The notes beneath the pieces were generated by a model. The model ran no database searches. It was given only the letters and a program-made list of their open reading frames with translations, and was not told where the DNA came from. Made by a program: the position numbers and the translations under genes. A DNA stretch of 39,279 bases, taken from positions 1 to 39,279 of the IMG/VR virus record IMGVR_UViG_3300010368_000032; one strand, 5' to 3'. Source of the stretch: a virus. Shown here piece after piece: positions 1,460 through 23,100 of this stretch; position 1 is the stretch's first letter; each line of letters starts with the position of its first letter.

Positions 1460-1750
1460 ATGAAAGACTTGGAAACATATATTGACGAAGCAATCAAAAA
1501 CATAAGAAGCGACAGGGCTATTACCACAACTCTGCTAATGGAGTTGATGGAATATATGAAGAAAGACGACGAACGCAAAGAAAAGGTCGGTGTTGTCGCT
1601 GCTAAATATGTAGAAACTTTACAGAGATCAAACGAACAACTTGTTAAAGTCAGTGCTCTTATTCAAAAGAAAACTGAAGGACAAGAGGGTCTAACCGATG
1701 AAGATAAGAGTGAATTATTTGATCTTATAAAGGAAACTAGCAATGGCTAA
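1460..1750 (+). CDS. Small helical protein of unknown function
   Basis: A 96-residue, highly charged protein predicted to be nearly all helix (KDLETYIDEAIKNIRSDRAI ... LLMELMEYMKKDDERKEKVG ... VETLQRSNEQLVKVSALIQK). It has no cysteine, signal peptide or membrane segment. It could be a small coiled-coil adaptor or chaperone. Its gene is first in the unit that carries the tail hub genes, and its last 8 bases overlap the start of the hub gene. Small helical proteins beside hub genes can be assembly factors in T4-like phages (gp26, gp28 and gp51 are examples), but no residue-level similarity to these is visible, so the function is left open. The ATG has no Shine-Dalgarno sequence and sits 7 bases after a putative late promoter, suggesting a leaderless message. 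Confidence 0.7.
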   Translation: MKDLETYIDEAIKNIRSDRAITTTLLMELMEYMKKDDERKEKVGVVAAKYVETLQRSNEQLVKVSALIQKKTEGQEGLTDEDKSELFDLIKETSNG

Positions 1751-3530
1751 ACCCGGAGATTCAAATTGGGCTATATTGAATGTTGGCGCAGGGGTTTTAA
1801 ATCCAATTGGAAGCCCTCTTACTGGAAAAGTTTATAATCCTAATGATGCCGGTTTTTTTGCTATGGCAAGACAAACCACAATTGAAAACTTTTCTCCAAA
1901 AGGTCTTGATGGTCAAGGTCCTATGATTGGCATAGTTCTAAGAGTAGATGGCAAAATGAATATTGAAGGACCAGATAATCCAACATCTTGGCCTAATAGA
2001 TATGCTCAATTAGTTGATCAAAGAAGTGGTATAGCCCTACACCAAATAAAAATAAGAGTACCAGAACTACACGCACACTTACCAGTGCCAAAAGATTTAC
2101 CAGATAAAGAAACTAAAAGTGCAGATCACAGTATCATAAATTTGTACCCTACATTCATTGGGCAGTTTGATACGATTGATGATGGTAGAGAACCAAATCC
2201 GGGTTCTTTAGTGTGGGTAGATTTTCAAAATAGAGAAACCTTACAAGGACCAATTTATCTTGGAGCGGTTGAGGCTAATAAAACATATATGCCAAATGTA
2301 CAAGATACATCTGCTACAAATTGGGATGCTATATGTAATAGCCCGGAAGTGTTAGGAACTGCCACGGGTGGAGGAACCGGCGGTACCGGAGGAACTGGCG
2401 GTACCGGAGGTGGAGGACCTGCTCTTAACGCCGCTGGTATACCAATTGTTGCTGGTGGTGGTCCTCTTGGTACAGGTGGTCCTCTTGGTGGTATACCTAC
2501 CACTCCAACAGAGCTTCTAAAAGCGGCAACAAAACTTTTAAATAGCAAAGCTATTAAAATATATTGTGATAATTTAAGAAAACAAATGATCGAGGAAGTC
2601 AAAAGTATTAATGACATGGGGCTTGATATACCATTTCCTTCAGGATATAACACATGCACTGAAAGTGAAGCTAGAGCATTAATAATGGAACATTTTTCTC
2701 CCGGAGGAGCAAAGTTCAATAGCAAAGATGGCATGTTGGCTGGCACGGGAAATGGGGGGCTACAAGAAGACTTCTGGAATACAAATTCTACAAGGGTGGA
2801 GAGGGGACAAAATGCTATCAAAGTTTTTGATATGTTTGTAAGAAACGGATACACTCCTCAAGCGGCATTAGCAGTTTTGTCTCATGTTGTCGATGAGTCT
2901 GTTTATGATTCTAGGGTTGCCGGAGGGCTTCCAAACAAATCAAAACCAAAAGAAGATAATGGTTATTGGCCGGATAAAGGATTTTATCAAATTAATATTA
3001 AAGGTTCCACAGGGCAGAGTCGTAACCTAACAGAAGCAGACTGCATTGATCAAGTCACAGGAAAAAATTATTTTGATCAAATTGGTGGTGGTAAAACAGC
3101 AGCAATTGCTCCGGAGAAATATGCCAATACTGAAAATCCAGAAAGACCAAGAAAATTAATTAAAGATGTCAAAAATAGCAGGGGAGCAATAACAGAAAAG
3201 CAGTGGGAAGATGGCAATTATTTTGATGCAGGAGATATAGAAGTTTCCACCATGTTTATGATTGCAAGACTAAGAAATGCTGAAGGAAAAACTGAACCCG
3301 GTAAATTAGGTCCCGGACGAATGGGGGGATTAAGCAGACTAATGAAAAATCCTCAAGCCACAGGAGCACAAATCTATGCTCTTATGAGAAACTCAACTTT
3401 TGCTGCCGGGACAGGTCGAGGAAAAGAACAAAAGTCCACAAGAAAAAGAATGCAACACGCTGCAAAAAAAATGGGTAAATGTTACACAGGGGAAGGGTAT
3501 GTAACAAACTTCCAAGGATACCAGACGTAG
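1743..3530 (+). CDS. Baseplate hub / cell-puncturing protein, gp5-like OB fold plus tail-lysozyme-like domain
   Basis: A 595-residue protein in three parts. Residues about 60-185 (VLRVDG..., YAQLVDQRSGIALHQIKIRV, PNPGSLVWVDFQNRETLQGP, IYLGAV) look like the OB-fold domain of T4 gp5 and related hub proteins, where 'pG..V.V.f...e...p..lG' is typical. Residues about 209-255 are a Gly/Thr/Pro linker encoded by 18-base tandem repeats. Residues about 350-560 resemble the phage tail lysozyme domain: NAIKVFDMFVRNGYTPQAAL, then a helix ending VVDES with Glu385 as the best catalytic candidate, then GYWPDKGFYQIN, the usual 'G.gq' strand. In assembled virions such proteins sit at the tail tip and cut peptidoglycan during DNA entry. 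AAAGGA lies 8 bases before the ATG. The lysozyme call is from motif reading and is less certain than the hub call. Confidence 0.7.
   Translation: MAKPGDSNWAILNVGAGVLNPIGSPLTGKVYNPNDAGFFAMARQTTIENFSPKGLDGQGPMIGIVLRVDGKMNIEGPDNPTSWPNRYAQLVDQRSGIALHQIKIRVPELHAHLPVPKDLPDKETKSADHSIINLYPTFIGQFDTIDDGREPNPGSLVWVDFQNRETLQGPIYLGAVEANKTYMPNVQDTSATNWDAICNSPEVLGTATGGGTGGTGGTGGTGGGGPALNAAGIPIVAGGGPLGTGGPLGGIPTTPTELLKAATKLLNSKAIKIYCDNLRKQMIEEVKSINDMGLDIPFPSGYNTCTESEARALIMEHFSPGGAKFNSKDGMLAGTGNGGLQEDFWNTNSTRVERGQNAIKVFDMFVRNGYTPQAALAVLSHVVDESVYDSRVAGGLPNKSKPKEDNGYWPDKGFYQINIKGSTGQSRNLTEADCIDQVTGKNYFDQIGGGKTAAIAPEKYANTENPERPRKLIKDVKNSRGAITEKQWEDGNYFDAGDIEVSTMFMIARLRNAEGKTEPGKLGPGRMGGLSRLMKNPQATGAQIYALMRNSTFAAGTGRGKEQKSTRKRMQHAAKKMGKCYTGEGYVTNFQGYQT
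2370..2490 (+). repeat. 18-base tandem repeats coding a Gly-rich linker
   Basis: Two copies of GGAGGAACYGGCGGTACC (2370-2387, 2388-2405) and, after a short gap, two copies beginning GGTGGTCCTCTTGGT (2457-2471, 2475-2489). Both sets keep an 18-base period. They encode the flexible GGTGGT and GGPLGT stretches between the OB-fold and lysozyme-like domains of the hub protein and are much richer in G+C than the surroundings. Codon-length repeats of this sort expand and contract by slippage, so linker length may vary between relatives. Confidence 0.8.
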
Positions 3531-3561
3531 ATAAATTAGTATACGAATATAAGGAGTGATT

Positions 3562-4536
3562 ATGTCGGCATCAGATAATTTTATATCAATAGACAATAAA
3601 GAACTAGAAATATTAGATGAACAAACAAGGGTAATGTTGGAAACAATCCCAGAAGATATTTATATAAAACAGAAAGGCTATGGTCATCGTAGAAAAATAG
3701 AAAAAGTTCCAGTTTATAATCAGCAAAAAAATGAAAAAGTTCTTCAAGGTCCGGGTTCTAATTCGTGGATTGTCTTTGGAAAAGACAAACCAGCATCTGC
3801 CGCATCTGGATATGGCTCCGTTGGAGCAACACAAGCTTCTGCAATTGATATTTGTGTTGGCAGAGTTGGAGACTGGAAAACAATAACTCAAACAAAAATG
3901 GTAAAAGGTGTTGAAAAAAAGACAACCAAGAGAGAGTTAGTGGCGGAGAATGACTTTGTTAGAGATGCCGCCAGAATATATATATCAGAAAGAACGGACA
4001 TTGATGATTATTTTGGAATTCAAGCAGGAAAAGCCGGAGGATTAAATGGTTTATCTGGAATAGTTGTAAAAGCAGATAATGTTAGGCTTGTAGCTAGAGA
4101 AGGCATAAAATTGGTAACTAGAACAGATGAAAAAAACTCTAAAGGTGCAAATACGGATGTTATCATGGGTGTCGATATAATTGCTGGAAATGATGCTAGC
4201 GGATTACAACCTATGGTAAAAGGTGAAAATTTAAGAGATTTACTTAGGTATATGGTTGAAGATATAAGAAACATTACCTCTATGTTACATTCTATAACAC
4301 TAGCACAAGCATCGCTTGAAACTATGTTAACAGCACATTCCCACCCATCCACGGGTGGGGTAGCTTTTCCGTCTATAGAGTTGGGTGTATATTGTAGCGT
4401 TAGTCAAATAAGAAGGTTGGTTTTTGATGTCCCAGCACAAATTAAAAAGACTTTTGAAAATGTTCTCGAAGAGATAGAATATTTAAAGCCTTATGGTACT
4501 AAGTATATAAATAGTATGTCAAATCATGTAAACTAG
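3562..4536 (+). CDS. Beta-rich baseplate spike-like protein
   Basis: A 325-codon gene (324 residues) following the hub gene. The start is taken as ATG 3562, because AAGGAG at 3551-3556 is a ribosome site with the right spacing; an in-frame GTG at 3556 overlaps that site and is unlikely. The middle (about residues 110-235) has short alternating strands: AARIYISERTDIDDYFGI, SGIVVKADNVRLVAREGIKL, VIMGVDIIAGND. It is followed by LQPMVKGENLRDLLRYMVED and a conserved-looking AHSHPSTGG. This pattern of 'A.ri.i..r.....G....ad.v.i.ar.gi.l.t' recalls the beta-structured ends of gp5/VgrG-type spikes, and 'VKGenL...L' is common in such phage proteins. I infer a place at the tail tip with the preceding hub protein. 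The exact family is not certain. Confidence 0.6.
   Translation: MSASDNFISIDNKELEILDEQTRVMLETIPEDIYIKQKGYGHRRKIEKVPVYNQQKNEKVLQGPGSNSWIVFGKDKPASAASGYGSVGATQASAIDICVGRVGDWKTITQTKMVKGVEKKTTKRELVAENDFVRDAARIYISERTDIDDYFGIQAGKAGGLNGLSGIVVKADNVRLVAREGIKLVTRTDEKNSKGANTDVIMGVDIIAGNDASGLQPMVKGENLRDLLRYMVEDIRNITSMLHSITLAQASLETMLTAHSHPSTGGVAFPSIELGVYCSVSQIRRLVFDVPAQIKKTFENVLEEIEYLKPYGTKYINSMSNHVN
4506..4513 (+). promoter_or_regulatory. Possible T4-type late promoter, TATAAATA
   Basis: An exact copy of the T4 late consensus TATAAATA ends 30 bases before the ATG of the 2,917-residue gene, inside the last codons of the preceding gene. The same octamer also occurs inside genes (for example 14067-14074 and 31167-31174), so chance in AT-rich DNA is a real alternative. 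Recorded because its position is suitable. Confidence 0.25.
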
Positions 4537-4543
4537 GATTGTT

Positions 4544-7500
4544 ATGTCAGATACAGAGTTTTATTTTAAGCGAAATCCCCCTAATAAACCAGTAACCGTT
4601 AGGTCAACGGTTGTTATTAGATTGCCTCTATTTAATGAGAGTCCGTTTGGACCTGATAATAACAATTATCCATCATTTCAATCGTTGATGCATAATGGTA
4701 CGCCTGAATCTTTTGCAACGCTTCTGACTGACGGTGCTTTGAATAAGGCAATTAAGAATGCCTTGTTGTATAATTATTTTGGATATCCAGTAACCAACAT
4801 CAAATACGAAAAAAGCCAAAAAGATTATAAAGAAGGATCTTTACAATTTTCTAGCCAAAACAATAATCATCTTAAATTTACTCAATTTGAAGTTAAAGAC
4901 GGTCAATATGGTAAGTGGATAGACACTCTCCAAACCGTCCAAGGCATACTTTATCGTGGATATGTATCAACAAAAGGGTTTTATCAATATGGCTTGCTGA
5001 AACCATTACCAGATTTTAAAGATACAGAACTTGATCTTTATAATTATTTTGATCAAAGTGGTGATCAACAAACTTTTTCTTTCAAAGAAATACAAGAAAA
5101 TTCTGGATTAGAAGTTGATTTTATAAAAGACATATATATGTGTTTGCATGGTTCCAGTGATGGGGTGAACACCCCTCAATCTGTTGGCGGTTTTAATTCC
5201 TTTGTTGAGCCAATCGGTGTCTCTCCAAGAGGCTCTTTGTTTTACGCTGGAACAGGAGATCCAACTGGACCAGACGTTGAAAAAATTGCAAAGTTTGGGT
5301 TGTATGAGAAAAGTTCTGGTGGAAAAAGCTTTGTAGAATACGAAGCTGGAGGAGAAATATCCGATTTTATAAATGATTTTGATTATTTATCAGCCATGGC
5401 TTCATGGAATAGCCCTTACAATCCTTCTGATAAAACATATGCTAGAGCATGGCTACCAACTGGACCAATCGAAGGGTACTTAACATACATTACTTTGCAG
5501 CCTTCAAACCCACTTATAAATTACAATCCAAATGAAGGATTTATAGATCTTGCTGCCGGTGTTGATGATGGAGAGGTTATTGGTGATGAATCAATTGGGC
5601 TGTACGAGGCATCACAAATATCAGTTTCGGACTTTGCACAGGGCTTAGACTTAACTTGGAAAGCACCATATAATCAGCTAGATTCCCTCGCTTTTTTACT
5701 GGGAGAATATCAAAAAACGGATTGGTTTGTTGCATTTCCCGGATACGGTAATAATGGTGCTTCACTTGAAAATAATTATTCAGTAGAGTTTGGAAAATAT
5801 AATATTGCATCGATGTATAAATTATCTCCACAAATAGAAGATTTGTTAAAAGTTGACAACTTAGACATCAATCCTCTTGGTGGATTGCAATATTATCTAG
5901 ATGATCCCGCTAGAACATTAAACGCAATATATCCCAGAATATTCAAATATGTTAATGATATTGTACCAACTGCCCCATTACCATCTGTATTGCAGGAAGG
6001 ATCAGTAAAAAATGTTAATATAATTGACCCCAGTAAAATCGGTGGACAACAAATAAAATTCTCAGATATTTTACCAAAATTTAGAATAAGCGCAGATGAT
6101 TATTCAAAAAAGTTATACTATAATATACCAGAAAAAACATCTATAGGCTACACTCATGTTATCGGCGATTATAAGATATCTGGTCAAGAACTGATAGAAA
6201 CTATAGGCGAAGATAATAGCATTGACCCAGCAGTTTTGGAGGCTAAAAATAAATTTGTTATTGTTACAAAGACAAAAGAGCAGAGAGATTTTTTATTAGC
6301 TTCAAAAGATGAGTTTGGTAAAGCAGATATAACATATTCTAGTGATCCTAATTTTTTATTTAGATCACTACCCTCTCCTTTAAGTGAAGATTTTAGGAAA
6401 TCACTTATTCAAATAATGGATTCCGGAGCCAACGGTTCCGGTTACCCAGAGGGAGAATTAGACGAGTTACAAAAAGTATATAAATTTTCTGATTATTTAT
6501 GTGCGGCACTTTATTTTAGACTACCGCCTCATTACTCAAACGCAAATAAAGACGAAGGAGTTGGTTCACAACTTATTAAACATCAGCCAGCTACATTAAA
6601 GCAAAGGGCAAAAGTTCACCCCAACATTTGGAATGCTGAACCTAAGCTTAGATTTCTAGAAGGAGTGCAGGCTGATATAGAAGGCATATATGGCGGTCCT
6701 ATAGAGGCTGGACAAATGCCATACATTATGTTTTTAGGATCCTATATAAATTCAACATTTGAGAATACAAATATCACCAATACCGCAGAAACTTTTGAAT
6801 ATACTACTGGTAATGGGTGGAATGAAAGCACTGTTAATGTACCTTATATAGAAATAGAAACTAATACAGCATCTAATTTTGCTTTTCCTGTTTGGAATTA
6901 TGATTATAAAGCTTTATACGAGGTAGGCTGGAAAGACCTGTCTGACTATGATGAATCCAAAAATCCAGAATTGTCTCAAGTATTCGCATCAAATCCATCA
7001 GTGAAATACATAAAAGACAAAGGGATCCCTGATTGGGTTAGGGGTTTAAGAATATATCCCACACTTGATAATGATACAGTCCTCACAAGACCAGATAAAA
7101 ATTCTATTACAGGCACCAGCGATGCTGACTATATTTTAACAGATGAAGATATTGATGAGGCTGTAAATGGTGCCACTTCAACAGGCGATTCAATTGTAAC
7201 AGGATATAAAAACGCAAACACATCATTAGCTAACATAGCGGAAGTTAGTATTGTCAAAAAAATGATGCCAGCAGTGACTTTGGTTATGGAGCCAAATATT
7301 GATGCGGTTTCTCCCGGAAATACTCCATTTAGTATAGAAACATTTGATTCCGAAATTGAAAACTTGTCCTCTAATAATAAAGCGTATGTTGACATTCGCT
7401 ATGCTGTAGAAATAGATATTGATGAAAAAGACTTGATTTTGGATATGGTTGGTCAAGGTGTATTTGCTTTAGCGGGAGAAGTAGGAGATTATGAAAAGCT

Positions 7501-10500
7501 TGGCTTTGATATTGAAAAATTGCTTTTTAAATCTAATGGAAATGTAACATCCCCTAGTTTAATAGACGCTTATGGAGCTTCTGGATTTACCTTTGAGGGT
7601 GTTTATGGATATGATTTTGGTTCATTTGAAGATTATCTTGGAATAGATGCTGAGTTTTGCCCGACTTTTCCACCCAGTGAAGCAGAACAAAAGGCAATTC
7701 AAGTTTTAGAAAATAGCACTGATGAATATGCCTGCACAAGTTATATTTGTTTGGAGGGAGAAAATGTGGTCTCTGTTCAATTAAAACAGGGTCCCGGAAA
7801 AGACGCAGAAAATTTAGGATACTTAAAAAACAACACAGTTGTAAAAGTGTTGAAAGAGTGGGTAAATGGAAAGGGAGAATTTAATAAAATATTAATAGTT
7901 GATGAAACTAGTACTTTGAATGGTCAAGAAGGATACATACATCCAAAATATTTGAGACCAATATATCCAACATTAAGTGTGGATAAGAAAATATTTTTTA
8001 ATCAAATTTTCGATAATACAGACCCAACTAAAAAGTTAACTCTTGCAAATACAAATGTTGTTGCTATGGGAGTATTTGCAGAAACACTAATACCTGACTG
8101 GTGGAATGATACCAAGATGCTAGAGGGTCAACCATATGAATACAGGCAAGAGGGAGAATATTGGTGTACTGTTGAATTAGATTATGACTGTATTGTAGAC
8201 GAGGCAGATCTTAAGACAAAAATCTATGAAGCAAAAATAAAAGGAGTGAAACAGTTATTAGGGTTCTATGGAAAACAATACACTGAAGAAGACGTAGAAA
8301 AGTTAATTAATACTTATTTGGCTGTTAGGGTTGATTATAATTTAGAAGGCACAGAAATGGAGAATGGCTTTCACATTAGTGATAGACCCGGAGACCCATT
8401 AATGTTTTTGGTCAAGGCAGGTGGAATCTACATTAACGCTTTCCCAGATAGGCAAGATTCTTTACAGGAATACAAAAAGAATTCTAATAAAATAATATCA
8501 TTAAATACTAAATGGTACCAAACACACTTGCAACAATCAATATATGCTTTAAATAGCTTATATTATGTAATTCTATCATCTGACTATAGAGTACCTACTT
8601 TTAATTTCAAAAAGGAAGCAGATAGAATTTCCTATATTGTTCCTTACTTAAAGAGAATTCTTCTTGCAAATGGATATGAAACGGATTCACAGGAAGAAAA
8701 CATAATAAATATTGGCTTTGACAGCCAGTATAGAGTAACTTTTTTCTCATACAAAGAAAAAGATAAAGAAGAAAAACTGCTTCGCATAGGATTTGATTAT
8801 TTTTCATCTCAAGCACCATTTGTTTTTAAAAACACTATGGCTTTGCTTTATAGACATAGGCAAATAAAAGATCCAACTTTGAGAACAAGTTGGAAGAAAT
8901 TGTTTAATCAATGGCTACCAGACCCAAAACCAAAGATTGTTCCAAAATCAGAAGGTGGCGGAGGATACCCATCAGATTCCAGATGTAGTCCAAGTTTAAA
9001 TTGGAACCCACCACCGCTCAGTCAAATATGGGAACAAGTCGCTGCTCGACTAGATGAAATTTTAGATCTAGATCCAAGATATGATCTAGGGTCTTTTAGG
9101 TTTAATTTGTTAGAGTATTTCCCACCATGCCCTAAGCCCCCTGCCGGTCGTGGCTTGACAGTGATGAGGTTACTATCAGAAATCGAAGGGGAAACTAAAG
9201 TTTTTGATAATTTAGATATATTAAATAGCGTCCAAGCTGAAGTTGATAGAATAGGACAATATGTCGGAGATTTTATGTCCTCTCAGCAAGCAATGGATGA
9301 AATAAGGTCTAAAATATTTACTTTAGATGATTTGTATACATTTTTATTAAATTATATCTCACCAGAACTTTTGTACAGCAAAATATGTAAATGTTTCCTT
9401 GATTTACTTGACATTGATTCTATTGGGGTCCCAAATCTCGAAATTAATGCAACAGGTGGTTCTGGCGGATTAAATCTAAAACCCTCTAATATAGGTAAAG
9501 ATCCAAAAGAATTGTATGATGTACAAGGACCAGAAGCAGAAGCTAATCTCTTTGAAGAAAGAGAACAAATTCAAGCTGAAGACTTGTTTTGCTCTTTTTG
9601 TTTCAGAGTACCCAGTGTTTTTCTTAGATTACCATCAACAGATATCTTGAGTGTTTTAATAGATGCATTTAAAAAATTGTTAGAATTTGCTCTAGCACAA
9701 ATTTTGCTGCAACTAATAGCCTCCTTGCTGGACATTCTTCTTACTTGCCCTGATTTGGAATGCGCCCCCGGAGCAAGTAAGGTCAGGGATTATGGGTCAC
9801 AAGACATAGGAAATCTTTTTGATAATAATACGCCAGATAATCTACCAGATTTTTTAACAAATTGTGGTTTGCTGATAGACGGTACAAATATCACAGAAGA
9901 AGATGCAACAAATATGCTCAAAGAAGTTTCTGATAAATTAACAACGTCAGAAGTTTTAGGCTTAATAAGTGGAACACCTACTTCAAAATCTTTAAAAGTT
10001 GTTAAAAGAGTTGTGTCAAATTATCCAAACATTAATGACATTTTTACAGACATCGGAGTTATAGAAAACTTTTTTGCATGCGCTGGAGATAAATTAGAAC
10101 CAACTGTTTTTGATGATTTGGAAAACGACAATCTTGAAAATGTTGCAGACCCACAAATATGTTTTGATTTTAATGAGTTGTCTAGGAACAATATCTTGGA
10201 TAAATGTGGTAGTTTACCAAACCAACTAATAAACATTATTAAAGACAGAAATTTAAATCACGACATTCAAAAATATAAAGAAATCGCAAAATTTATTAGA
10301 GATAATGACAATCTATCATCGCAAATGCCATCTTTGTTTGAAGACGGAAAAGGAACACAAGGGCTACTTTCTTCGTTAAGTACCCCAACAGTTGATAAAA
10401 TAATTGAAGAAACTATTGATACAATCTCTATCCCAATTGCAACCGAACTAACAAAGGAAAGTGTAAATTTAACCAGACCAGAAGGACAGGTGCTTGTCAA

Positions 10501-13297
10501 ACAAAATGCAAGATTAAATATACTTTACGAGAAAGGAATATCGGATTTTATTGCAACTGCACCATTTAGAGAAAATGGTGCAGACAATTTTACAGGCTTA
10601 TATGAAAAGTTAGAAGAGCCAATTGTTAACCCTGATACTAAAAAAGAGGAATATCAAAAGCAGCTACAAAACATTAAAGATATAATGTCAAATATATACA
10701 ACCATATATATTTTGACCCAAATAATTTTAGAGTGAGTATATCTGTTGGCGAACAATCAGAACCCTCGTCAACAGCCATGATAAAGTTTAATCCACCAGC
10801 AGAAGACCAAACTACTGGGGAACCAGTATACACAAACAACTACCAAGTCTATGTTTATAATAATGTACCATTTTATTCAACTCCGATAGAGCTTAGTATA
10901 AACGGCGGAGCAAATACAATACCAGAAGAAATTAATAATTATATTCAAAATTTTGAGCTAAAAAATACAGACATCCCAGAGCAAGCACAGGTGTTTGGAA
11001 ATATAATTACTAATGGCATTAAAAAAATTATAGAAGAAGCAAACTTAGAAGAATCGGAAGTGAGTGAGCAATTAGAAAACTTAAAATCAATATTTGAAAC
11101 AGATTTATATATTAACTCTTTGGGTTCAATTATCGGAGGGATTACCGATGTTGTTTCAACTGGAAATATAATGAGCGAATATACGCTTGATCGCCAAAAT
11201 GAAGCGTTATCTTCTCCGGTTTTTGCAGGACTGGTCCTAGCAACAGCATACGCTTTTGCTGCTAGTCCACTTGGGCAGGCTGTTTTTGGTCCCCTTGGCG
11301 TGGCAGCAATTGCTACTATGTCAAATGAAGATATCTTTGAGAAAATGTACCCAAATTATACAAAAAAACAACTTCAGCATCTAAAATTAGCTCCAAAGGT
11401 TGTAAAAGAAAATAATGGCACTGCAAAAGTTCATGGTCTTATAGATTTTGATAAAGTAAAGGCTGCTGCAAAAGAATATTATAATTTTGCAAAACAAACA
11501 GATGAAAATTCGGAGGCATTAAACATGGGGCAACTTGCCATACTTAATGGGCTAATATCCGCAGTTTGTCAACTTTTTGCTGGAGAAATATATTCTAAAA
11601 GCGTTTTTACATTAGCTCATTATCCAAAAGAGTTGTTTGCAGAAGAATTAAACGGAAGTCTGATATCAAAATATGCTACACAATTAATGGTAAGATATTT
11701 TAATAATACTGTTGTGGAAGCAGGTGTTATAAACGAAGATTTAGACTGGGAAGAGTGGAATCAGTTTTCCGCTGCATGGCAAACTGTTATTTCTAGGTTA
11801 ATATCTGAAAAATCAGAATTTACAAATTTTAATACAAATGGTGCTCTTCCCGGTCTTCCGGGAGAAAGCACATCAAAGGGAGATAATGTTGTTGGGGCTG
11901 GCGGGGTTGATGGAAAAATATATGATGTTGTAACTGGAAAAGAGGAAGTAATTAATTCTTGGATTAAAGCAACAGAATATTATGTAAAACAAAATGCGTA
12001 TGACCCACTAAAGTTTGTTAAAAGTAGATTAAAAAATATAAAATATTACAATGAGTTAGCCGCAGATCCAGAGACAAATCCGTTTGATACAATAGCATAC
12101 CCAAAGGTTTTAGAAGTTCACGATGGAATAACTAGTGATTTTTCTTTTACAGATGAAAGCAATTTAGATGAATTAACTGGGGAAGAAATTCAAGAAATAT
12201 ACGATATTTTACCAACAATTCAGCCAGATCAAATTAAAAACTATTTCAACACTAAAAGCGACAGTTCACTCTTTTCAGCAGGTGTTACAGTCACTGACCC
12301 CCTCGCTCCCATAAAAAGTCATTTTGCAAATGGAAAGTTTTTCTATCAATATTATTTTAGAATAGAAGACTGGGAATCAGAAGAGGAAGCAGCAGAAAAT
12401 GATGGTATATATGTAGAAAATTTAGTTCTTAGAAAACCTAAAGGTAGTGCTGAAAGTGACTATAATCTGATGGGAGTTGTTAATAGGGACGGCTTATTAA
12501 AAATAATTAATAATATGTACCCAGCCGGAGAAAACTATGGCTTGACTGATTGGCAAACAAAAGAGCCTATAAATCGATTTTTTAAGTCTATCAAATATGG
12601 TATAAGATTTTGCTATGGATCAATTCAATCAGTTAATACAGAAATTGCTGGTCAAACAAATAAAACAAAAGAATTGAACAATAGTATTAATACTATTTTT
12701 AACACTATGCACCAAAATCAAAAATTGAAAGAGTTTTGTAAAAAAGAAAAGGTGTTTAAAATTACAGAATTAGATGTTAATTTGACAGAATACACAGAAG
12801 AAGATATTCCATACTTATTACAACAAAAAAGAATAAGTCACATTATACCGATTAATTCACAAGAAACAGCTAATATCAAAGATTTTGATGAATTTAGTTT
12901 TTCCCCTGCTGCTTTTTTTGAGGAAGATGGTGCTGGCGAAGCTTTAATTATAGATTGGTCGCAAAACAGAAAACAATTAACTACTATTCTTTTTTCAAAA
13001 ATTAATGGCACAGAAGAAAATTCACAAAATTTGGAATTTAAAACTATGTTCTTCTATTGTCTTCCGGTGCCACTACTTATTAGCTTGTTCTTAACGTTTA
13101 ATGCTTCAATTGTATCAACTGATAGAAATGTTGAACAAGCGTTTTCCAGCACAAAGGAAGTAATAAAAGATATTTTTATGTCTATTTATAACACTAGGGG
13201 TCGTGAATATTGGAAACAAACGCCAAAATCAATTGCCAAAAAAGGTGGACCAATTGGCATGGCCGTATCATCAATTCCTGATAAAAATGATTTATAA
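4544..13297 (+). CDS. Giant virion-associated protein of unknown function (2,917 residues)
   Basis: One uninterrupted 8.75-kb frame between tail-tip and wedge genes, so very probably a structural or ejected virion protein. I recognise no full-length family. Visible pieces: residues about 1062-1140 look like a bacterial SH3-like module (VSVQLKQGPGKDAENLGYLK, VVKVLKEW, QEGYIHPKYLRPI); residues about 1525-1745 hold a cysteine cluster (CKC near 1612, CSFC near 1683, CPDLEC near 1733) and a long hydrophobic helix-rich stretch at 1701-1735 (VLIDAFKKLLEFALAQILLQ LIASLLDILL); further hydrophobic segments lie at about 2225-2259 (VFAGLVLATAYAFAASPLGQ...) and 2834-2856 (MFFYCLPVPLLISLFLTFNA). The C-terminus is basic. 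Three membrane-like segments in a tail protein could mean insertion in the host envelope at infection, which is inference. It does not look like a coiled-coil tape measure. AGGA lies about 6 bases before the ATG. Confidence 0.75.
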   Translation: MSDTEFYFKRNPPNKPVTVRSTVVIRLPLFNESPFGPDNNNYPSFQSLMHNGTPESFATLLTDGALNKAIKNALLYNYFGYPVTNIKYEKSQKDYKEGSLQFSSQNNNHLKFTQFEVKDGQYGKWIDTLQTVQGILYRGYVSTKGFYQYGLLKPLPDFKDTELDLYNYFDQSGDQQTFSFKEIQENSGLEVDFIKDIYMCLHGSSDGVNTPQSVGGFNSFVEPIGVSPRGSLFYAGTGDPTGPDVEKIAKFGLYEKSSGGKSFVEYEAGGEISDFINDFDYLSAMASWNSPYNPSDKTYARAWLPTGPIEGYLTYITLQPSNPLINYNPNEGFIDLAAGVDDGEVIGDESIGLYEASQISVSDFAQGLDLTWKAPYNQLDSLAFLLGEYQKTDWFVAFPGYGNNGASLENNYSVEFGKYNIASMYKLSPQIEDLLKVDNLDINPLGGLQYYLDDPARTLNAIYPRIFKYVNDIVPTAPLPSVLQEGSVKNVNIIDPSKIGGQQIKFSDILPKFRISADDYSKKLYYNIPEKTSIGYTHVIGDYKISGQELIETIGEDNSIDPAVLEAKNKFVIVTKTKEQRDFLLASKDEFGKADITYSSDPNFLFRSLPSPLSEDFRKSLIQIMDSGANGSGYPEGELDELQKVYKFSDYLCAALYFRLPPHYSNANKDEGVGSQLIKHQPATLKQRAKVHPNIWNAEPKLRFLEGVQADIEGIYGGPIEAGQMPYIMFLGSYINSTFENTNITNTAETFEYTTGNGWNESTVNVPYIEIETNTASNFAFPVWNYDYKALYEVGWKDLSDYDESKNPELSQVFASNPSVKYIKDKGIPDWVRGLRIYPTLDNDTVLTRPDKNSITGTSDADYILTDEDIDEAVNGATSTGDSIVTGYKNANTSLANIAEVSIVKKMMPAVTLVMEPNIDAVSPGNTPFSIETFDSEIENLSSNNKAYVDIRYAVEIDIDEKDLILDMVGQGVFALAGEVGDYEKLGFDIEKLLFKSNGNVTSPSLIDAYGASGFTFEGVYGYDFGSFEDYLGIDAEFCPTFPPSEAEQKAIQVLENSTDEYACTSYICLEGENVVSVQLKQGPGKDAENLGYLKNNTVVKVLKEWVNGKGEFNKILIVDETSTLNGQEGYIHPKYLRPIYPTLSVDKKIFFNQIFDNTDPTKKLTLANTNVVAMGVFAETLIPDWWNDTKMLEGQPYEYRQEGEYWCTVELDYDCIVDEADLKTKIYEAKIKGVKQLLGFYGKQYTEEDVEKLINTYLAVRVDYNLEGTEMENGFHISDRPGDPLMFLVKAGGIYINAFPDRQDSLQEYKKNSNKIISLNTKWYQTHLQQSIYALNSLYYVILSSDYRVPTFNFKKEADRISYIVPYLKRILLANGYETDSQEENIINIGFDSQYRVTFFSYKEKDKEEKLLRIGFDYFSSQAPFVFKNTMALLYRHRQIKDPTLRTSWKKLFNQWLPDPKPKIVPKSEGGGGYPSDSRCSPSLNWNPPPLSQIWEQVAARLDEILDLDPRYDLGSFRFNLLEYFPPCPKPPAGRGLTVMRLLSEIEGETKVFDNLDILNSVQAEVDRIGQYVGDFMSSQQAMDEIRSKIFTLDDLYTFLLNYISPELLYSKICKCFLDLLDIDSIGVPNLEINATGGSGGLNLKPSNIGKDPKELYDVQGPEAEANLFEEREQIQAEDLFCSFCFRVPSVFLRLPSTDILSVLIDAFKKLLEFALAQILLQLIASLLDILLTCPDLECAPGASKVRDYGSQDIGNLFDNNTPDNLPDFLTNCGLLIDGTNITEEDATNMLKEVSDKLTTSEVLGLISGTPTSKSLKVVKRVVSNYPNINDIFTDIGVIENFFACAGDKLEPTVFDDLENDNLENVADPQICFDFNELSRNNILDKCGSLPNQLINIIKDRNLNHDIQKYKEIAKFIRDNDNLSSQMPSLFEDGKGTQGLLSSLSTPTVDKIIEETIDTISIPIATELTKESVNLTRPEGQVLVKQNARLNILYEKGISDFIATAPFRENGADNFTGLYEKLEEPIVNPDTKKEEYQKQLQNIKDIMSNIYNHIYFDPNNFRVSISVGEQSEPSSTAMIKFNPPAEDQTTGEPVYTNNYQVYVYNNVPFYSTPIELSINGGANTIPEEINNYIQNFELKNTDIPEQAQVFGNIITNGIKKIIEEANLEESEVSEQLENLKSIFETDLYINSLGSIIGGITDVVSTGNIMSEYTLDRQNEALSSPVFAGLVLATAYAFAASPLGQAVFGPLGVAAIATMSNEDIFEKMYPNYTKKQLQHLKLAPKVVKENNGTAKVHGLIDFDKVKAAAKEYYNFAKQTDENSEALNMGQLAILNGLISAVCQLFAGEIYSKSVFTLAHYPKELFAEELNGSLISKYATQLMVRYFNNTVVEAGVINEDLDWEEWNQFSAAWQTVISRLISEKSEFTNFNTNGALPGLPGESTSKGDNVVGAGGVDGKIYDVVTGKEEVINSWIKATEYYVKQNAYDPLKFVKSRLKNIKYYNELAADPETNPFDTIAYPKVLEVHDGITSDFSFTDESNLDELTGEEIQEIYDILPTIQPDQIKNYFNTKSDSSLFSAGVTVTDPLAPIKSHFANGKFFYQYYFRIEDWESEEEAAENDGIYVENLVLRKPKGSAESDYNLMGVVNRDGLLKIINNMYPAGENYGLTDWQTKEPINRFFKSIKYGIRFCYGSIQSVNTEIAGQTNKTKELNNSINTIFNTMHQNQKLKEFCKKEKVFKITELDVNLTEYTEEDIPYLLQQKRISHIIPINSQETANIKDFDEFSFSPAAFFEEDGAGEALIIDWSQNRKQLTTILFSKINGTEENSQNLEFKTMFFYCLPVPLLISLFLTFNASIVSTDRNVEQAFSSTKEVIKDIFMSIYNTRGREYWKQTPKSIAKKGGPIGMAVSSIPDKNDL
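13182..13189 (+). promoter_or_regulatory. Intragenic CTATTTAT, possible late promoter for the wedge genes
   Basis: The octamer followed by A (CTATTTATA) lies in the last 40 codons of the giant gene, about 134 bases before the gp25-like gene. It could start a transcript for that gene, which lacks a closer copy. A second intragenic copy at 15340-15347 has no obvious downstream start, so chance occurrence is also possible. Confidence 0.3.
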
Positions 13298-13323: not shown

Positions 13324-13719
13324 ATGGCTAGTCTTTCACCAGCACTGCCTTTAACTCTGGATAAAAAAGACGGATATAAGATGAATAAAAACATCAAAGA
13401 TGTTATCAAGCAAAATTTTAAAATGTTAGTTCTAACTTCTCCCGGAGAAAGAATAATGCTTCCAAATTTTGGTGTTGGTTTAAGAAGGTTCTTGTTTGAG
13501 CCAATGACAACAATTCAATTTGGAAAAATAGAATCTAGAATTCAAAACCAAATAGAACAATATATGCCTTTTTTAAGCTTAATTGAGGTAAAATTTCTAA
13601 CTCAAGAGCAGGACCCATCTGTATTGTTAAATGAGGTATCTGTTTCTGTTAGATATGCAATTCCATCTATTAATACAATAGATGAAATAAACTTAAGATT
13701 ATATAATAAAGAATTTTAG
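13324..13719 (+). CDS. 25: Baseplate wedge protein, T4 gp25 / GPW family
   Basis: A 131-residue protein with the gp25/GPW/IraD signature. After a helical N-terminus (NKNIKDVIKQNFKMLVLTSP) comes GERIMLPNFGVGLRRFLFEP at residues 41-60, the family's hallmark 'pGER.m.p.fG..l....fe', then a helix (KIESRIQNQIEQYMPF) and two to three strands (SLIEVKFL, EVSVSVRYAIP, INLRLY). In T4, gp25 sits at the top of the baseplate wedge and links the wedge ring to the first sheath layer; homologues occur in all contractile injection machines. Its length matches T4 gp25 (132 residues). It is followed, after a 74-base gap, by the gp6-like gene, its direct partner in the wedge core. Confidence 0.92.
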   Translation: MASLSPALPLTLDKKDGYKMNKNIKDVIKQNFKMLVLTSPGERIMLPNFGVGLRRFLFEPMTTIQFGKIESRIQNQIEQYMPFLSLIEVKFLTQEQDPSVLLNEVSVSVRYAIPSINTIDEINLRLYNKEF

Positions 13720-13793: not shown

Positions 13794-15605
13794 ATGCCGA
13801 TAAAAAAAAATAAAAAGATAATTCCAATTGATTACACTAGTAGAGATTTTGACTCGATCAAAACAGAACTTTTAAATTATACAAAAAGATATTATCCTGA
13901 TTCGTTTCAAGATTTTAGTGAAGCATCTTTTGGGTCTTTAATGTTAGATACCGTAGCTTATGTTGGGGACGTTTTATCTTATTACCTTGACTATCAAGTC
14001 AACGAGTCTTTTTTAGACACAGCAACAGAATATCAAAATGTAGTCAAATTATCTAGACAATTAGGTTATAAATACAAAGGTGTTCCCATCTCAACTGGAA
14101 TTGTGTCTTTTTATATTACTGTTCCTTCAAATTCCGATGGAATATCTCCAAATTTAGATTACGCCCCCATACTAGAAAGGGGAACAAAAGTAGCTACACA
14201 GGGTGGTGTAGTATTTACATTAAACGAGGATGTAGATTTTTCTGGAGATGAAGCAGAGTACATTGTTGCAAGTGTAGATTCTGTAACTGGTGTGCCCAAT
14301 AGATATGCTGTAAAAGCATATGGACAAGTTATTTCTGGAGAAATTGCAGTACAAACCATACAGGTTGGAAACTATGAAAGGTTTCCAAGATTTAGATTAA
14401 ACGGCAATAATATAGTTAATGTCATCTCTGTTTTTGACTCTCAAGGTAATCAATATTATGAAGTAGAAAATTTATCTCAAGATGTTATTTTTAAAAAAAT
14501 AAAAAACCCAAGTCTGTCAGATAAAAATCAAGCTCCATTTTTAATGAAGCCAGTATCTGTACCAAGAAGATTTATAACAGAATCAACTGGTCAAGATTAT
14601 TTTATACAATTTGGTCATGGATCTGTAACTAACATACAGTCTGGAAAAATCGTAGAGCCTAGCAAAGTAGTGTTAAACGTACATGCTAGGGATTATGTTA
14701 CTGATGCAACCTTCGACCCTAGTAATCTTGTCGAATCTGATAAGCTTGGAATAGCTCCGTCTAACACAGCTTTAACTGTTTTATACAGAATTAATGGGTC
14801 AGAAAATGTTAATGCAAGTGCTAGGAGCATAACTGAAGTCGTCGATACTTCCTTTGCTTTTGCAAACCTTTCCACACTTCAGACAAGTGAAGTTCAAAAA
14901 GTGATTGCTTCTTTAAATGTACAAAATGAATCGCCAATTAATGGAGACAGTTCTGTTGACACAGTTAGAGATTTAAAAAATAGAGCGTATGGTATGTTTT
15001 CTTCACAGGGCAGAGCGGTTACAGAGCAAGACTATATATCCTTATCATATGCCATGCCGCCTGAATTTGGATCAGTTAAAAGAGCCGCAATTGTTCAGGA
15101 TAAAAATTCTTTTAAAAGAAATTTAAATTTATATGTTGTTGCAGAAAACGTAGCAGGAAATTTAAGCTCGCTAAACCAAAGTGTTAAGCAAAATTTAAAA
15201 ACATGGCTAACAAACTATAAAATGGTTAATGATACAATTGATATTTTAGATGCGACAATTGTTAATATTGGAATTGAGTATAGTATTGTTACAGATGAGG
15301 AAGTTAATTCTTACAAAATATTAAACGATGCAAACGTTGCTATTTATGAAGCTGTGGGTGCTACAAAATTATATATTGGCGAATCTTTAAGATACAGCGA
15401 TATTTTTAGAGCGTTGAAAAATGTTGATGGAGTGCTTGATGTTGTAGAGGTTAACTTTGTTACAAAATACGGAGATAGCTATGCAACCTCTGCTTTTAAT
15501 ATTGAACAAAATACTACCCCCGATGGAAGAGCCTTATTAGCTCCGGAAAATGTAATTTTTGAAATAAGATTTCCAAATCAAGACATAATAGGGACAGTTA
15601 AATAA
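13794..15605 (+). CDS. 6: Baseplate wedge protein, T4 gp6 / baseplate J family
   Basis: A 603-residue protein (T4 gp6 is 660). The N-terminus has the strongly conserved start of this family: IIPIDYTSRDFDSIKTELLN (residues 9-28), then FQDFSEASFGSLMLDTVAYV (39-58), GDVLSYYLDYQVNESFLDTA (59-78) and VVKLSRQLGYKYKG (83-96). The C-terminal half carries the baseplate-J features (DLKNRAYGMFSSQGRAVTEQ followed by DYISLSYAMPPEFGSVKRAA), and the extreme C-terminus FEIRFPNQDIIGTVK is also typical. In T4, gp6 dimers form the inner ring of the baseplate and clamp the gp7 and gp25 subunits; the ring opens on infection to trigger sheath contraction. The stop overlaps the next gene's ATG region (TAAtaatg spacing), so the two are co-transcribed. 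Confidence 0.92.
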   Translation: MPIKKNKKIIPIDYTSRDFDSIKTELLNYTKRYYPDSFQDFSEASFGSLMLDTVAYVGDVLSYYLDYQVNESFLDTATEYQNVVKLSRQLGYKYKGVPISTGIVSFYITVPSNSDGISPNLDYAPILERGTKVATQGGVVFTLNEDVDFSGDEAEYIVASVDSVTGVPNRYAVKAYGQVISGEIAVQTIQVGNYERFPRFRLNGNNIVNVISVFDSQGNQYYEVENLSQDVIFKKIKNPSLSDKNQAPFLMKPVSVPRRFITESTGQDYFIQFGHGSVTNIQSGKIVEPSKVVLNVHARDYVTDATFDPSNLVESDKLGIAPSNTALTVLYRINGSENVNASARSITEVVDTSFAFANLSTLQTSEVQKVIASLNVQNESPINGDSSVDTVRDLKNRAYGMFSSQGRAVTEQDYISLSYAMPPEFGSVKRAAIVQDKNSFKRNLNLYVVAENVAGNLSSLNQSVKQNLKTWLTNYKMVNDTIDILDATIVNIGIEYSIVTDEEVNSYKILNDANVAIYEAVGATKLYIGESLRYSDIFRALKNVDGVLDVVEVNFVTKYGDSYATSAFNIEQNTTPDGRALLAPENVIFEIRFPNQDIIGTVK

Positions 15606-17148: not shown

Positions 17149-20100
17149 ATGGCAAATGTACCACCAATAATAATACCACCACCACAAGTAAAGTCAAAAA
17201 TTCAGCAGGATTTGGTAAAGCAGATAGCTGCTTATAATGCTGATATTTCTGCAAAATCTCAAATAATTTCAAACACTAGTGTAGATAAAGTTGGAAGAAA
17301 GATAGAATCTGCCGGATACCTTCAGGAATTTTTTGAAGATCAGAAAAGGTTTTTGCCAGATACTGACTTTTCTGATCCATCTAATTTCGCTTATTTTGGG
17401 TCTGCCGAAGAATATTATTTAAATGCAGCAGAGAATATATATCGTTTTTACCCATATGATGGATCTTTAAAAGAAAAATATGAATGGCATAATAATGCTT
17501 CTTTTTTGGATAATTATATATTTGAATATGAATATCCTCGAACAAATGGAAATATTTTAATTGGAGAGACATGGGGATCTGTTGCGGCAACAAAAACTGT
17601 AACAGACGATTCTTACAGTATTTCAGACGCACCGCAGTATATTTTTACAAAAGGTGGTCCAAATGCTCCATCAATACCTTCTTTTGCGACATCTTCCTAC
17701 ACTAAAATATTAGACTACAAAGAAAAAGAACAAAAAGCAAATATTTTTGATACAGAAATAGAGCAAATACAAAACTTTTCAGTAAATGGCAATGATGGTA
17801 ATACTGTTGAATTTTGGTTTAAGTTTCCAACAAATCCTTTGGCAGATCAACAATCAAAGCATTTTTGCTATTTTGATTTATGGAATGGGCAAACAATTGA
17901 TTCTGTAGTACCCGGATCTGAGTATGGTCGCTTAATGATTGAGACTAAGCTTGATGCATCATCAGAGTTTCAAGAGACATGTTTATTTAACGTAACTTAT
18001 AAATCTGGATCTTCTGGTGTCCTCGGTGCTAAAATTGGGGCTTTAACCTCCAATGTGCTAAGTTCTGTAAGCACAGATTATAACATTCAGCTGACAGACT
18101 GGAACCACTTTGCGTTTTCTATGGAAAACAATTTAACGGGTTCTGATCACTTATTAATTAACCTTTACATAAATGGTTATTTGGTTGAATCAACACATAC
18201 GGGATCTCAAATCGGTGAAGTAAAAGAAGGTCCTTTCAATTCAGCAATTGGAGCTTATAGAACTGGTCCAAATGCAGCAGCGGTTGCTGCTGGTGTTACT
18301 GAAGGATACGGATCCATTTCTGGGTCATTTGATGAATTTAGGTTTTGGAAAAAAACAAGAGATTCTTCTCAAATTGCATTTAATTGGTTCAAGCAAATAC
18401 AAGGCGGCACAAACACGGATTATGGAACACATGATTCCAAATATTCTGGATCTGCTAACCCTGTAGATCTTGGAGTATATTACAAATTCAACGAGGGAAT
18501 AACACTGTCTTCCTCTATAGACAGAATTGCATTAGATTATTCTGGTCGTGTTTCTAATGGTTTTATTAAAAATTATTCAACTAACATGAGATCGACATCC
18601 TCTGCTATTGTTTTGGCAAATGCAGCACAATCAGAATTTAAAGATCCAATCGTATATAATTTTCATCCGTCTGTTGTTTCATATCTTGAAAATGTTCAAT
18701 ATAAAGGAATGGAATATGACTTAAGAAATTCGATGTATCTTTACAATACTCTACCAGATTGGATAATAGCTGATGATGAAGATAAAAGTACATTTAATGC
18801 TAAAAAACTACTCCAAATAATGGCTAGCTATTTTGATGATCTTTTTCTACAAATAAAATCAGTCCAATCCCTTAAGGAACCAAAATATCTTAGTGGTTCA
18901 TTGTCTGGGAGTTATTTGAAGCCTTTGCCTTTTGCGAAAAGGTTGTTAACGAATTCAGGATTTCCTGCGCCGGAGATTTTTACAGATGGCACCGTATTTG
19001 AGCTTTTAGCTGATAGAAATGATGAATTTGAATTTAAAAGAAAACTAGCAGATGTAAAAAACCAAATTTATACAAATGTTTATAACAATTTGATAAACAT
19101 TAATAAAGCAAAGGGAACAGAGAAATCAATTAGAAATATACTTCATTGCTTTGGGGTCAGTGATGATGTATACAGCATAAACTTTTATGCAAACAATGCT
19201 AAAATAGATTTAGCCCAATCTCCTCTACCTAGAACAATAAGAAAAAGCTATGCAGATTTTAGTGATGCTAGTAGATTTGCTGCTACAGTTTTTCAAATGA
19301 CAGCATCTTCAAACTCGAATAGCGTGTCTTTTATCACAGGGAGTAATGGCTATGAGTATGCAACGATAACTGAGGAATTACCATTTACAATAGAAACAGA
19401 GGTTATCTTTCCTAAAAAGCCAGCATATTCAGACCCAGCGTTTAAAGACAAGGAATATATTAATTTATCCGCATCTTTGTTTGGAATGCATACCGTTGCT
19501 TTTTATGAAAATTCTTCAGATGCTGCAAAAGATACATCGTGGAATGACTTGGACAAGGCAAACTTTCAGGTTTATGCAGTTAGAGAAAAGAGAGGATCCC
19601 TAAGTTCTCAATATGATGATGTACATTTCATCCTTACATCGTCTCAGGCTTTCCCTTCAATTGAGGGAGTTATACCTGTTCTTACTAGTCCAATTTTTAG
19701 GGATACATATTTCAATGAAAAATGGAATTTTGCAGTAAAAATAAAACCGTCTAGATATCCAAATGTAGGAGTATTAAGTGGTTCAGAGCTTTCAGATTAT
19801 AAAGTAGAATTTATAGGATACAATGCTGTTGGGGACACGATACAAAACAGCTTTCATTTAACTGGAACTATCGATAGAAACGATGGTCTTGATATTGCTA
19901 GGTCTAGTAAAAGGGTGTATGTTGGAGCACATAGGGAGAACTTTACAGGATCTTTACTAACCCCAACAGATGTGAAAATATCTTCATGTAGGTTTTGGCA
20001 GTGTGATTTAACAACAGAAGAAATACAATCTCACGCAATAGATCCAACAAATTATGGCGTTTTTACACCAGAAAGATCAACATTTATGTTGCTTGGTAAA

Positions 20101-23100
20101 GATGATTATACTGGTTTTAGTGCAGATGATTTTCCTGTTGAAATACCAAGAATAAAAACGCTTTTGATGAATTGGGACTTCGATACTATCACAGGATCAA
20201 ACAAGGCTAATAGGGAAGGGGAATCGGTTGGAGAATTTATTGTAGAAGACTTTTCTTCTGGATCGAACACATCGATTTATACTGGATTTTTTAATGATTT
20301 ATTGACAAAGCAACACACAGGTAGGGGCTATTATTTTCCAAATATAGACAATTACACCGGCTCAATATCCAGAGAATATGTTTATGGAATGAAGCAACAA
20401 GTTCCAGAGAATTTTAACAATGCTGCAACTGTACAAATATTAGAAAGAGACGATGAATATTTTACCAGAAGAACAAGACCAATAACATTTTCTTTTGCAA
20501 TAGAAAAAAGTATGTATCAAGCAGTGTCTGAAGAAATGCTTAATTTTGTAGCAGCTTCCAAAGAGGCATCGGGTCTGGAAAATGCAATCGGCGATCCTGT
20601 AAATAGATATAGGGAAAGATACAAAGACTTAGAATTCTTAAGGCATATATTCTTTGAAAAAGTTTCCAATACTCCAGATATAGATAAATATTTGGAATTT
20701 TATAAATGGCTTGATGAATCAATAACGGAAATGGTGAGACACATTGTGCCTGTTTCTTCTAATTTTAGAAATGTAAGCAACGTTGTAGAAAGTCATGTTT
20801 TGGAAAGGAATAAATATAGAAATAAGTTTCCAATTATTACTGATGTAGCTAAAGGAAATCCACACACTGAAGAGGTTACAGAGATTGTATATGATGTTGA
20901 TTCGCATCAAACACAGGAAGAGACTTTTAGGACTGTATCACTTGATGGTCATGGAAGAAGCAAAATTGATATAATTGGAGATATAAGAGTTACAAATCGA
21001 ACTCCACCTACGTCTGAAATCGCAGATAGTAGACCAAGTTATATTCCCGCATATAGCCCAAACACTCCAACAGCAGACTATATTAGAACGCCAGCAGTGG
21101 ATCTTGGTTCCGCAACGCCCGAGGTAGATCAAAGTGAGAACCCGGATTATCACGCTGATATAGCTGATCTGACTCAGCCAGAATATTCAAGTGGTGACAC
21201 AACCATTGATTTACAGAGAGCTATAATACAAGCCGTTGTCAATAAAGATATAAGTGGAACAGGGAAGCATTCAACGGAAGCTGCCGGTGAAGGCTGGGTC
21301 ATCGGTGGTGGATCTGGTGTGGCATCCGGACAAGTATCCAGTCAATTTAATCAAGATCAAAGTAGGTCTAGACCAAAACATGGTAAAAACAAGCGTGGAT
21401 TTTTACTGAATTATTTTGAACCGGGATCTGGAAAAACAATGGTTTTTAACACTGGAGATCTAGTACCGGCTAGAACAATAAACTGGGATCGACTAAATCC
21501 ATCCAGAACATATAAGCCAGAATACAGAGTTGTTTTATCTGGAGATTCGGACGGCCGTGGATATCCCGGCAGACTTGTTTCGCCATATGCATTTTTCAGC
21601 GGAACGTTCCCAACTAGTCAAGTAACTGGATATCAAATAGATTCTCAACATCATAGAGATTATTATTTAGAAACAAAAGACGTTTCTTTGCAAGGACCAT
21701 TTACTGCACAGAATGTCGGAGGATATGCGTATAGGCATGGTGGGTTAAGGGTAGACGTTAATGCTCCGGGGATGGGTTATAATTTTAAGCCAGAAGCATG
21801 GTATGCATACAGATCTATTCTTCCATCTGGAGAAATTCAGTTTACTTTATATAACCCATTTGACTTACCGGGAACCGGAAATGGCTATCCAAGAGCACCT
21901 TATTTGAGAGATGAAGTTGCAAAAAGACCGTTTAATATTAAGAATATTAAATCAACAATAGATAGTTATTTACCACAAAGAACAGAATTACCACCAGTTA
22001 ATGATCTTGGTAATTCAAAGCCATATGTTGGTAATTATGAAAAAGATTATCAAATAATGTCTTTTAGGCAAAGAGACATTAATAATAGATATTTAATAAG
22101 AAGTGGTTCTGTTTCAACTGCTTCAGTTGGTTCTACTGGCATACCATCAATATCTGGAGCATATGATTGGGAAGTCCCAAACATGGGCAAGTCAGAACAC
22201 ATAATTGTTAGTAAATTTTCCGCTCCCGGAGGTCCAGAAACCGCTGGCAAAGCTTTTAATGACTATACATCTGACACATATAGTCCCTATAATGCTATAC
22301 CGTTTAGAAATTTATCTGTAAAACAGCCCCTTTATACTCTTTTGACATCTCATGCATTATTCGGGGGATATAGTAGTGATTATGGCGCACCATCTGCATC
22401 ATACCATAAAGTTCAAAGAAATGGCAAAAAATATGTAAAACACTCAGACATTTTTGAAACAGTAGTAACTGCCGCAGTATACGATAATTATTGGCTACAA
22501 CACATGATCCCGCAAAGCGATTTACAATATGCTTGGATTACAGCATCTGCAACAAATGTTATTTATGGCTATGAGCAGCCAGATTATGAAAATGCCAGCT
22601 ATGCATCAACTGATATTCAATTCGTTAGCGAGAGCCAACACGCATCGGTGTTGAGTTCATTCGGTGGCTTTTTCGGCGGAGATGTTGTCCAAGTGTTTGG
22701 AGTGTCTCCGGGCAACCTGTACTCGCAAGAGGGTAGAATTACAACAGATTTTGTTGGGCTAAACTACAATGTTTTAACAAGTATTACTGAATCCTCAAAC
22801 ACGATTGGAGCCTCTCTTAATACGACTCTTATAGATGATGGGTTTGTCGAAGATGGTCCCGGCTATGGACCATCTTTTCTGGCACAAGGTGCAATTGGAT
22901 ACCCTGCTTTCTTAAATGCAATCAACTTAAATAGAAACGGAGCCGGTGGCTTCTCATCTTGGAAACAAATAAGACAAGCAGATAATCCTATTGTAAAAGA
23001 CATGAGAAAATACAATAGGTTATCAATACTAACTCAAAGTATTGATAGCGAGACTGGCAATCCTAAACTACAGCATTTAGTAAAAAATGGCTTCAAAAAT

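Follow-up and report, generated by a model that had tools for sequence, protein, structure and literature searches.

The minimal contractile baseplate is considered well defined, comprising a spike, a hub, and three or four wedge proteins. The largest wedge protein of phage T4 is gp7 (BW3), a multi-domain protein of 119 kDa (PMC3004832). The centre piece and BW4 (gp53, with a LysM fold) are baseplate "glue" proteins, and fusions of parts are known (PMC10811340). The baseplate of phage Milano is locked by disulfides, with cysteines spread over the sheath, tube, and wedges, and its gene numbers run through the centre piece, hub, spike, wedge 1 (gp25-like), wedge 2 (gp6-like), and wedge 3 (PMC10811340).

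The window analysed here is a 39-kb viral contig fragment of 39,279 bases (IMG/VR record IMGVR_UViG_3300010368_000032). It shares with Milano the order spike, gp25, gp6, with one very large gene, referred to as the giant, inserted between the spike and wedge 1. A literature search for comparable proteins returned analogues only. T4 gp7 is similar in its large size, its multiple domains and several cysteines, and its place in the baseplate, where it forms the wedge with gp25, gp6, and gp53; unlike gp7, the giant is encoded before gp25, and the T4 protein is about one-third of its size and has no match to it in sequence or fold. The centre piece and BW4 resemble it in the proposed joining of the central assembly to the wedge, in their helical parts, and in a small LysM-type domain, whereas the giant has an SH3b domain instead of LysM, has no tube domain that could be found, and is far larger. 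Milano shows, as a precedent, that cysteines can be functional in the baseplate of a contractile tail, but there they are distributed over many proteins, whereas gp25, gp6, and a 513-aa protein neighbouring the giant have none.

Gene and locus

The giant gene is a single open frame (4544..13297) encoding 2,917 aa with zero stops, and 24 aligned relatives are likewise free of internal stops. It occupies 8,754 of the 39,279 bases (22% of the window), as the initial annotation of this sequence had described, and an identical copy is carried by a second contig. Coordinates of the giant, its parts, and the four flanking genes are on the + strand. The gene is preceded by a hub-like ORF of 595 aa (1743..3530) and a spike-like ORF of 326 aa (3556..4536), and is followed by genes for a gp25-like baseplate wedge (13324..13719; PF04965, E = 7e-14) and a gp6-like baseplate wedge (13794..15605; phrog_219, baseplate wedge, E = 2e-23), which places it between tail-tip and wedge genes as had been proposed. 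The gp6-like protein has full-length matches to the Mel-JY01 and immuto phages.

The 595-aa protein is probably an OB-fold hub, judging from its sequence character and position, and has a C-terminal muralytic-type domain (weak match to PF18013, E = 0.018). At the related loci aligned for this protein (alignment A7), the N-terminal part is conserved and the C-terminal wall-hydrolase domains are interchangeable (VanY, Amidase_2, Peptidase_M23, M15_4, M74, Phage_lysozyme2, SLT, and DUF2272). Across relatives it carries peptidoglycan hydrolases of at least six kinds, and passage through the wall would therefore be served by the hub. The 326-aa protein is conserved in 14 loci and appears spike-like from its position and repeat-like strands; a PDB search with it gave no match.

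Several other genes in the window and its relatives were noted. At the left end, an 80-aa zinc-ribbon protein is encoded at 202-444 (PF09723, E = 1.6e-10). Upstream of the hub gene, a 100-aa protein (441-743) has a clear transmembrane-like helix at its N-terminus (KD19 2.52) and is the window's strongest candidate for a membrane protein. The 227-aa protein at 743-1426 occurs at the same place in cultured relatives (E 1e-22 to 1e-27) and had no match in a Pfam search; judged by eye, it resembles a late sigma factor (gp55-like). Downstream, a second giant of 3,185 aa (17149-26706) has a Laminin_G_3 domain at residues 215-410, and the frame at its position in a 146-kb relative is 4,178 aa. At L121-L128 (G001, reverse-strand coordinates 105448-107514), a 688-aa protein has repeated Cys/Asp-rich motifs of the CDGxDNDCDGxxDE type, which are unusual in a phage.

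Distribution and phylogeny

Relatives were gathered from IMG/VR using gp6 as bait and then using the giant itself. Many contigs were recovered with a homologous giant in the identical position, giving a large family in which the gene order sigma-like, hub, spike, giant, gp25, gp6 is maintained. Where gp6 was ≥42% identical to that of the window, a long frame stood directly upstream of gp25 in 51 of 51 loci, including some frames cut at contig ends and two that are split. Among the 34 sister loci with gp6 ≤35% identical, which include those of cultured phages of Microcystis and Flavobacterium, 33 carried a frame of 81-223 aa before gp25, with L045 as the lone exception. Descent of the giant from this small ORF was considered and rejected, as there was no profile similarity (hhalign probability ~0.1). 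In a gp6 tree with an inferred root and polarity, a 100/100 branch separates the giant-bearing phages from the rest. Since the giant is present in all near loci and 33 of the 34 sister loci have an unrelated small frame, it marks one clade, and it is a real, conserved protein family confined to that clade of uncultured contractile-tailed bacterial viruses.

Within the clade, five short giants (1,551-1,685 aa) are without residues 1 to ~1065 and group together with 100/100 support inside the long ones in the gp6 tree, a pattern most simply explained by loss of the N-terminal region. Two sister contigs (L017 and L020) carry the gene as two frames, broken at comparable positions, which suggests that the C-terminal 566-612 residues may function as a chain of their own. 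The giant of L116 is divided by a stop that may be an assembly fault.

Outside this family, the giant had zero matches in PHROGs, INPHARED, and PDB sequences, and a tblastn search of 50,697 phage records with the giant and three divergent members returned nothing. One scan of genome contigs for giant relatives found none. Profile searches of PHROGs, Pfam, and PDB with N-terminal, middle, and C-terminal alignments found SH3 alone, and no profile or fold match connected the giant to gp25, gp6, gp7, gp53, gp27, or gp48/54. The claim that no known family covers the protein thus stands for nearly its whole length, the part to be amended being residues 1078-1137, which match SH3_3. With no known baseplate homologue by sequence or fold, the role is therefore assigned from gene position, and the place of the gene in the baseplate cassette is conserved.

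Domain organization and cysteines

Identity to near relatives is 19-30% for residues 1-944, 39-51% for residues 945-1960, and 24-30% for residues 1961-2917. AlphaFold models were obtained for the latter two regions. The model of residues 945-1960 had a pLDDT of 66, with good parts at ~1045-1474 and 1745-1914 and a poor part at ~1470-1745. It includes a bacterial SH3 domain at residues 1078-1137 (7775..7954; PF08239, SH3_3, E = 3.6e-7), which scored 30.7 bits against a curated cut-off of 27 and was matched by Foldseek to the SH3b structures 2krs/2kt8 (probability 1.00, E ~0.08), so the SH3-like module named in the initial annotation is borne out. The SH3_3 match was obtained in 8 of 24 family members. 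It is followed by an alpha/beta core at residues ~1185-1470 (8096..8953; pLDDT mostly 70-93) with no PDB match at E < 0.001 in Foldseek, and a PDB fold search with the entire 945-1960 model gave SH3b domains only. The C-terminal region (residues 1961-2917; 10424..13294) was predicted as one compact unit (pLDDT 76.6, pTM 0.77). Its model matched nothing in the PDB fold search, and in BFVD it had two matches below 0.001, A0A516M7H3_2 and A0A516LBU8_2 (E = 1.6e-8 and 6.4e-6). Together with the weaker A0A516MAR9_2 and A0A1B1IUR6_2, these are viral giants that align with the C-terminal half in predicted fold across 700-1,180 columns (probability 1.00, E 1.6e-8 to 3.8e-3), with low TM-scores (0.2-0.3).

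The cysteine cluster is stronger than had been claimed. Twelve cysteines between residues 1481 and 1888 are invariant in 18 of 18 long members and are, in the alignment, the best-conserved feature of the giant. Eight of them (1481, 1529, 1615, 1617, 1683, 1686, 1735, and 1740; 8984..9763) belong to a region of which the short forms are without most of the cysteines. The other four (C1774, C1846, C1873, and C1888; 9863..10207) lie in a helical region with pLDDT mostly 66-88 and are invariant in 24 of 24 members, with C1873 also present in many of the distant ones. Natural readings of such conservation are a structural metal site or disulfides, and the absence of cysteines from the neighbouring proteins suggests that these sites would be inside the giant itself.

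From these observations, we infer that the giant is a multi-domain baseplate structural protein of an uncultured T4-like (gp25/gp6-bearing) myophage clade, present in the virion and acting as a scaffold, a reading to which a probability of roughly 0.55 is given. Most likely, it is a metal- or disulfide-stabilised scaffold joining the spike/hub to the wedge. It would anchor the spike/hub on the wedge ring or occupy the gap between the two, with the Cys-rich helical middle as a core stabilised by metal or disulfides, the SH3b as a module binding peptidoglycan or protein, the long N-terminal region as a dispensable accessory part, and the hydrophobic stretches as packing helices. A more specific version, put forward tentatively, is that of a candidate clade-defining giant (~325 kDa) with new folds, whose 12 cysteines would form a metal centre (zinc or Fe-S) or a redox switch and which would link spike and wedge, with no T4-type counterpart.

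The N-terminal accessory region (residues 1-944; 4544..7375) bears on a different placement, in which the giant would sit on the baseplate rim as a peripheral platform for adhesion or receptor binding and touch the host through a fast-evolving N-terminal region. This region is the least conserved part and is lost in one nested clade, and SH3b domains are commonly cell wall binders. However, profile searches found no lectin, fibre, or adhesin domain in it, and the large downstream ORFs (such as that of 3,185 aa with Laminin_G_3) are better candidates for the fibre side; we regard an adhesion platform as rather unlikely.

The large size, the hydrophobic stretches, and the variation in length from 926 to 3,205 aa (complete, unsplit frames) would also suit a tape-measure or ejected (pilot) protein in the tail lumen. 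Against this, the related 146-kb contig with a homologous giant encodes its own sheath, tube, and hub elsewhere, and beside the tube and hub it has two large proteins, judged TMP-like on sequence character only, so that the giant is not the sole TMP candidate in that genome. The giant has no PHROG match, its SH3b and alpha/beta domains and compact C-terminal unit are unlike a long coiled coil, and its length halves in a nested clade. A tape-measure identity was rejected on the separate TMP-like genes of the 146-kb relative, and the wider lumen reading is improbable.

Hydrophobic segments

Three membrane-like segments had been proposed to form an envelope channel. All three are present: segment 1 at residues 1701-1735 (9644..9748), segment 2 at 2225-2259 (11216..11320), and segment 3 at 2834-2856 (13043..13111), with the hydrophobic stretches themselves located at about 1715-1733, 2226-2260, and 2839-2857. 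A fourth stretch, which the initial annotation did not list, is a conserved helix with polar residues at 2331-2349 (11534..11590). Their number does not exceed chance, as four Kyte-Doolittle windows at ≥1.6 were observed against 2.28 expected in residue shuffles (P = 0.17), and the best KD19 of 2.15 is inside the shuffle range (1.93 ± 0.25). Identification as a membrane protein by hydropathy was rejected on this chance level.

Two of the three segments are not conserved as hydrophobic. Segment 2 is an insert that the short forms do not have and that several of the long forms replace with polar sequence, and segment 3, hydrophobic in the giant of the window, scores 0.3-1.6 in most relatives. 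Both are confidently predicted short helices within the compact C-terminal model (pLDDT 76-84 and 88-91). Segment 1 is a single predicted helix of low confidence (pLDDT 34-48) and alone is hydrophobic across the near family, with a KD19 of 1.7-2.5 in 24 of 24 members and a Wimley-White octanol value of -7.9 kcal/mol in the giant of the window. E1714 and Q1719 within it are invariant in an 11-member alignment, and the helix aligned to it in distant members (for example L034, L018, L100, and L095) is charged along its length. This pattern would fit an amphipathic or bundle helix, and segment 1 is unlikely to have a membrane role; the judgement is no firmer because the model of the segment is poor.

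The proposal that the hydrophobic segments enter the host inner membrane once the tip opens the wall, delivering DNA through an envelope channel, could draw on the family-wide hydrophobicity and low-confidence model of segment 1 and on Gly/Ala-rich stretches at its site in some short forms, but the chance-level window count, the confidently folded and unconserved segments 2 and 3, and the charged distant homologues and invariant E and Q of segment 1 make it very improbable.

Discussion

The gene, its position, and its cysteines were confirmed, and the excess of hydrophobic segments and the channel were not. Homologues were found beside the gp25/gp6-like genes in all 51 near loci, and of the suggested undescribed DNA-delivery component, the part that stands is a conserved protein of the tail-tip/baseplate cassette whose position is fixed and which annotated phages do not have. 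The giant is a real, undescribed, clade-specific member of the baseplate cassette, and the evidence favours a folded baseplate scaffold over a membrane channel. With its invariant cysteines and with predicted folds that have no counterpart in the PDB, it is a concrete structural target. The clade retains the standard gene order yet adds a single protein that equals several wedge proteins combined in size. If the scaffold reading is true, the baseplate cores of uncultured myophages can hold large undescribed parts.
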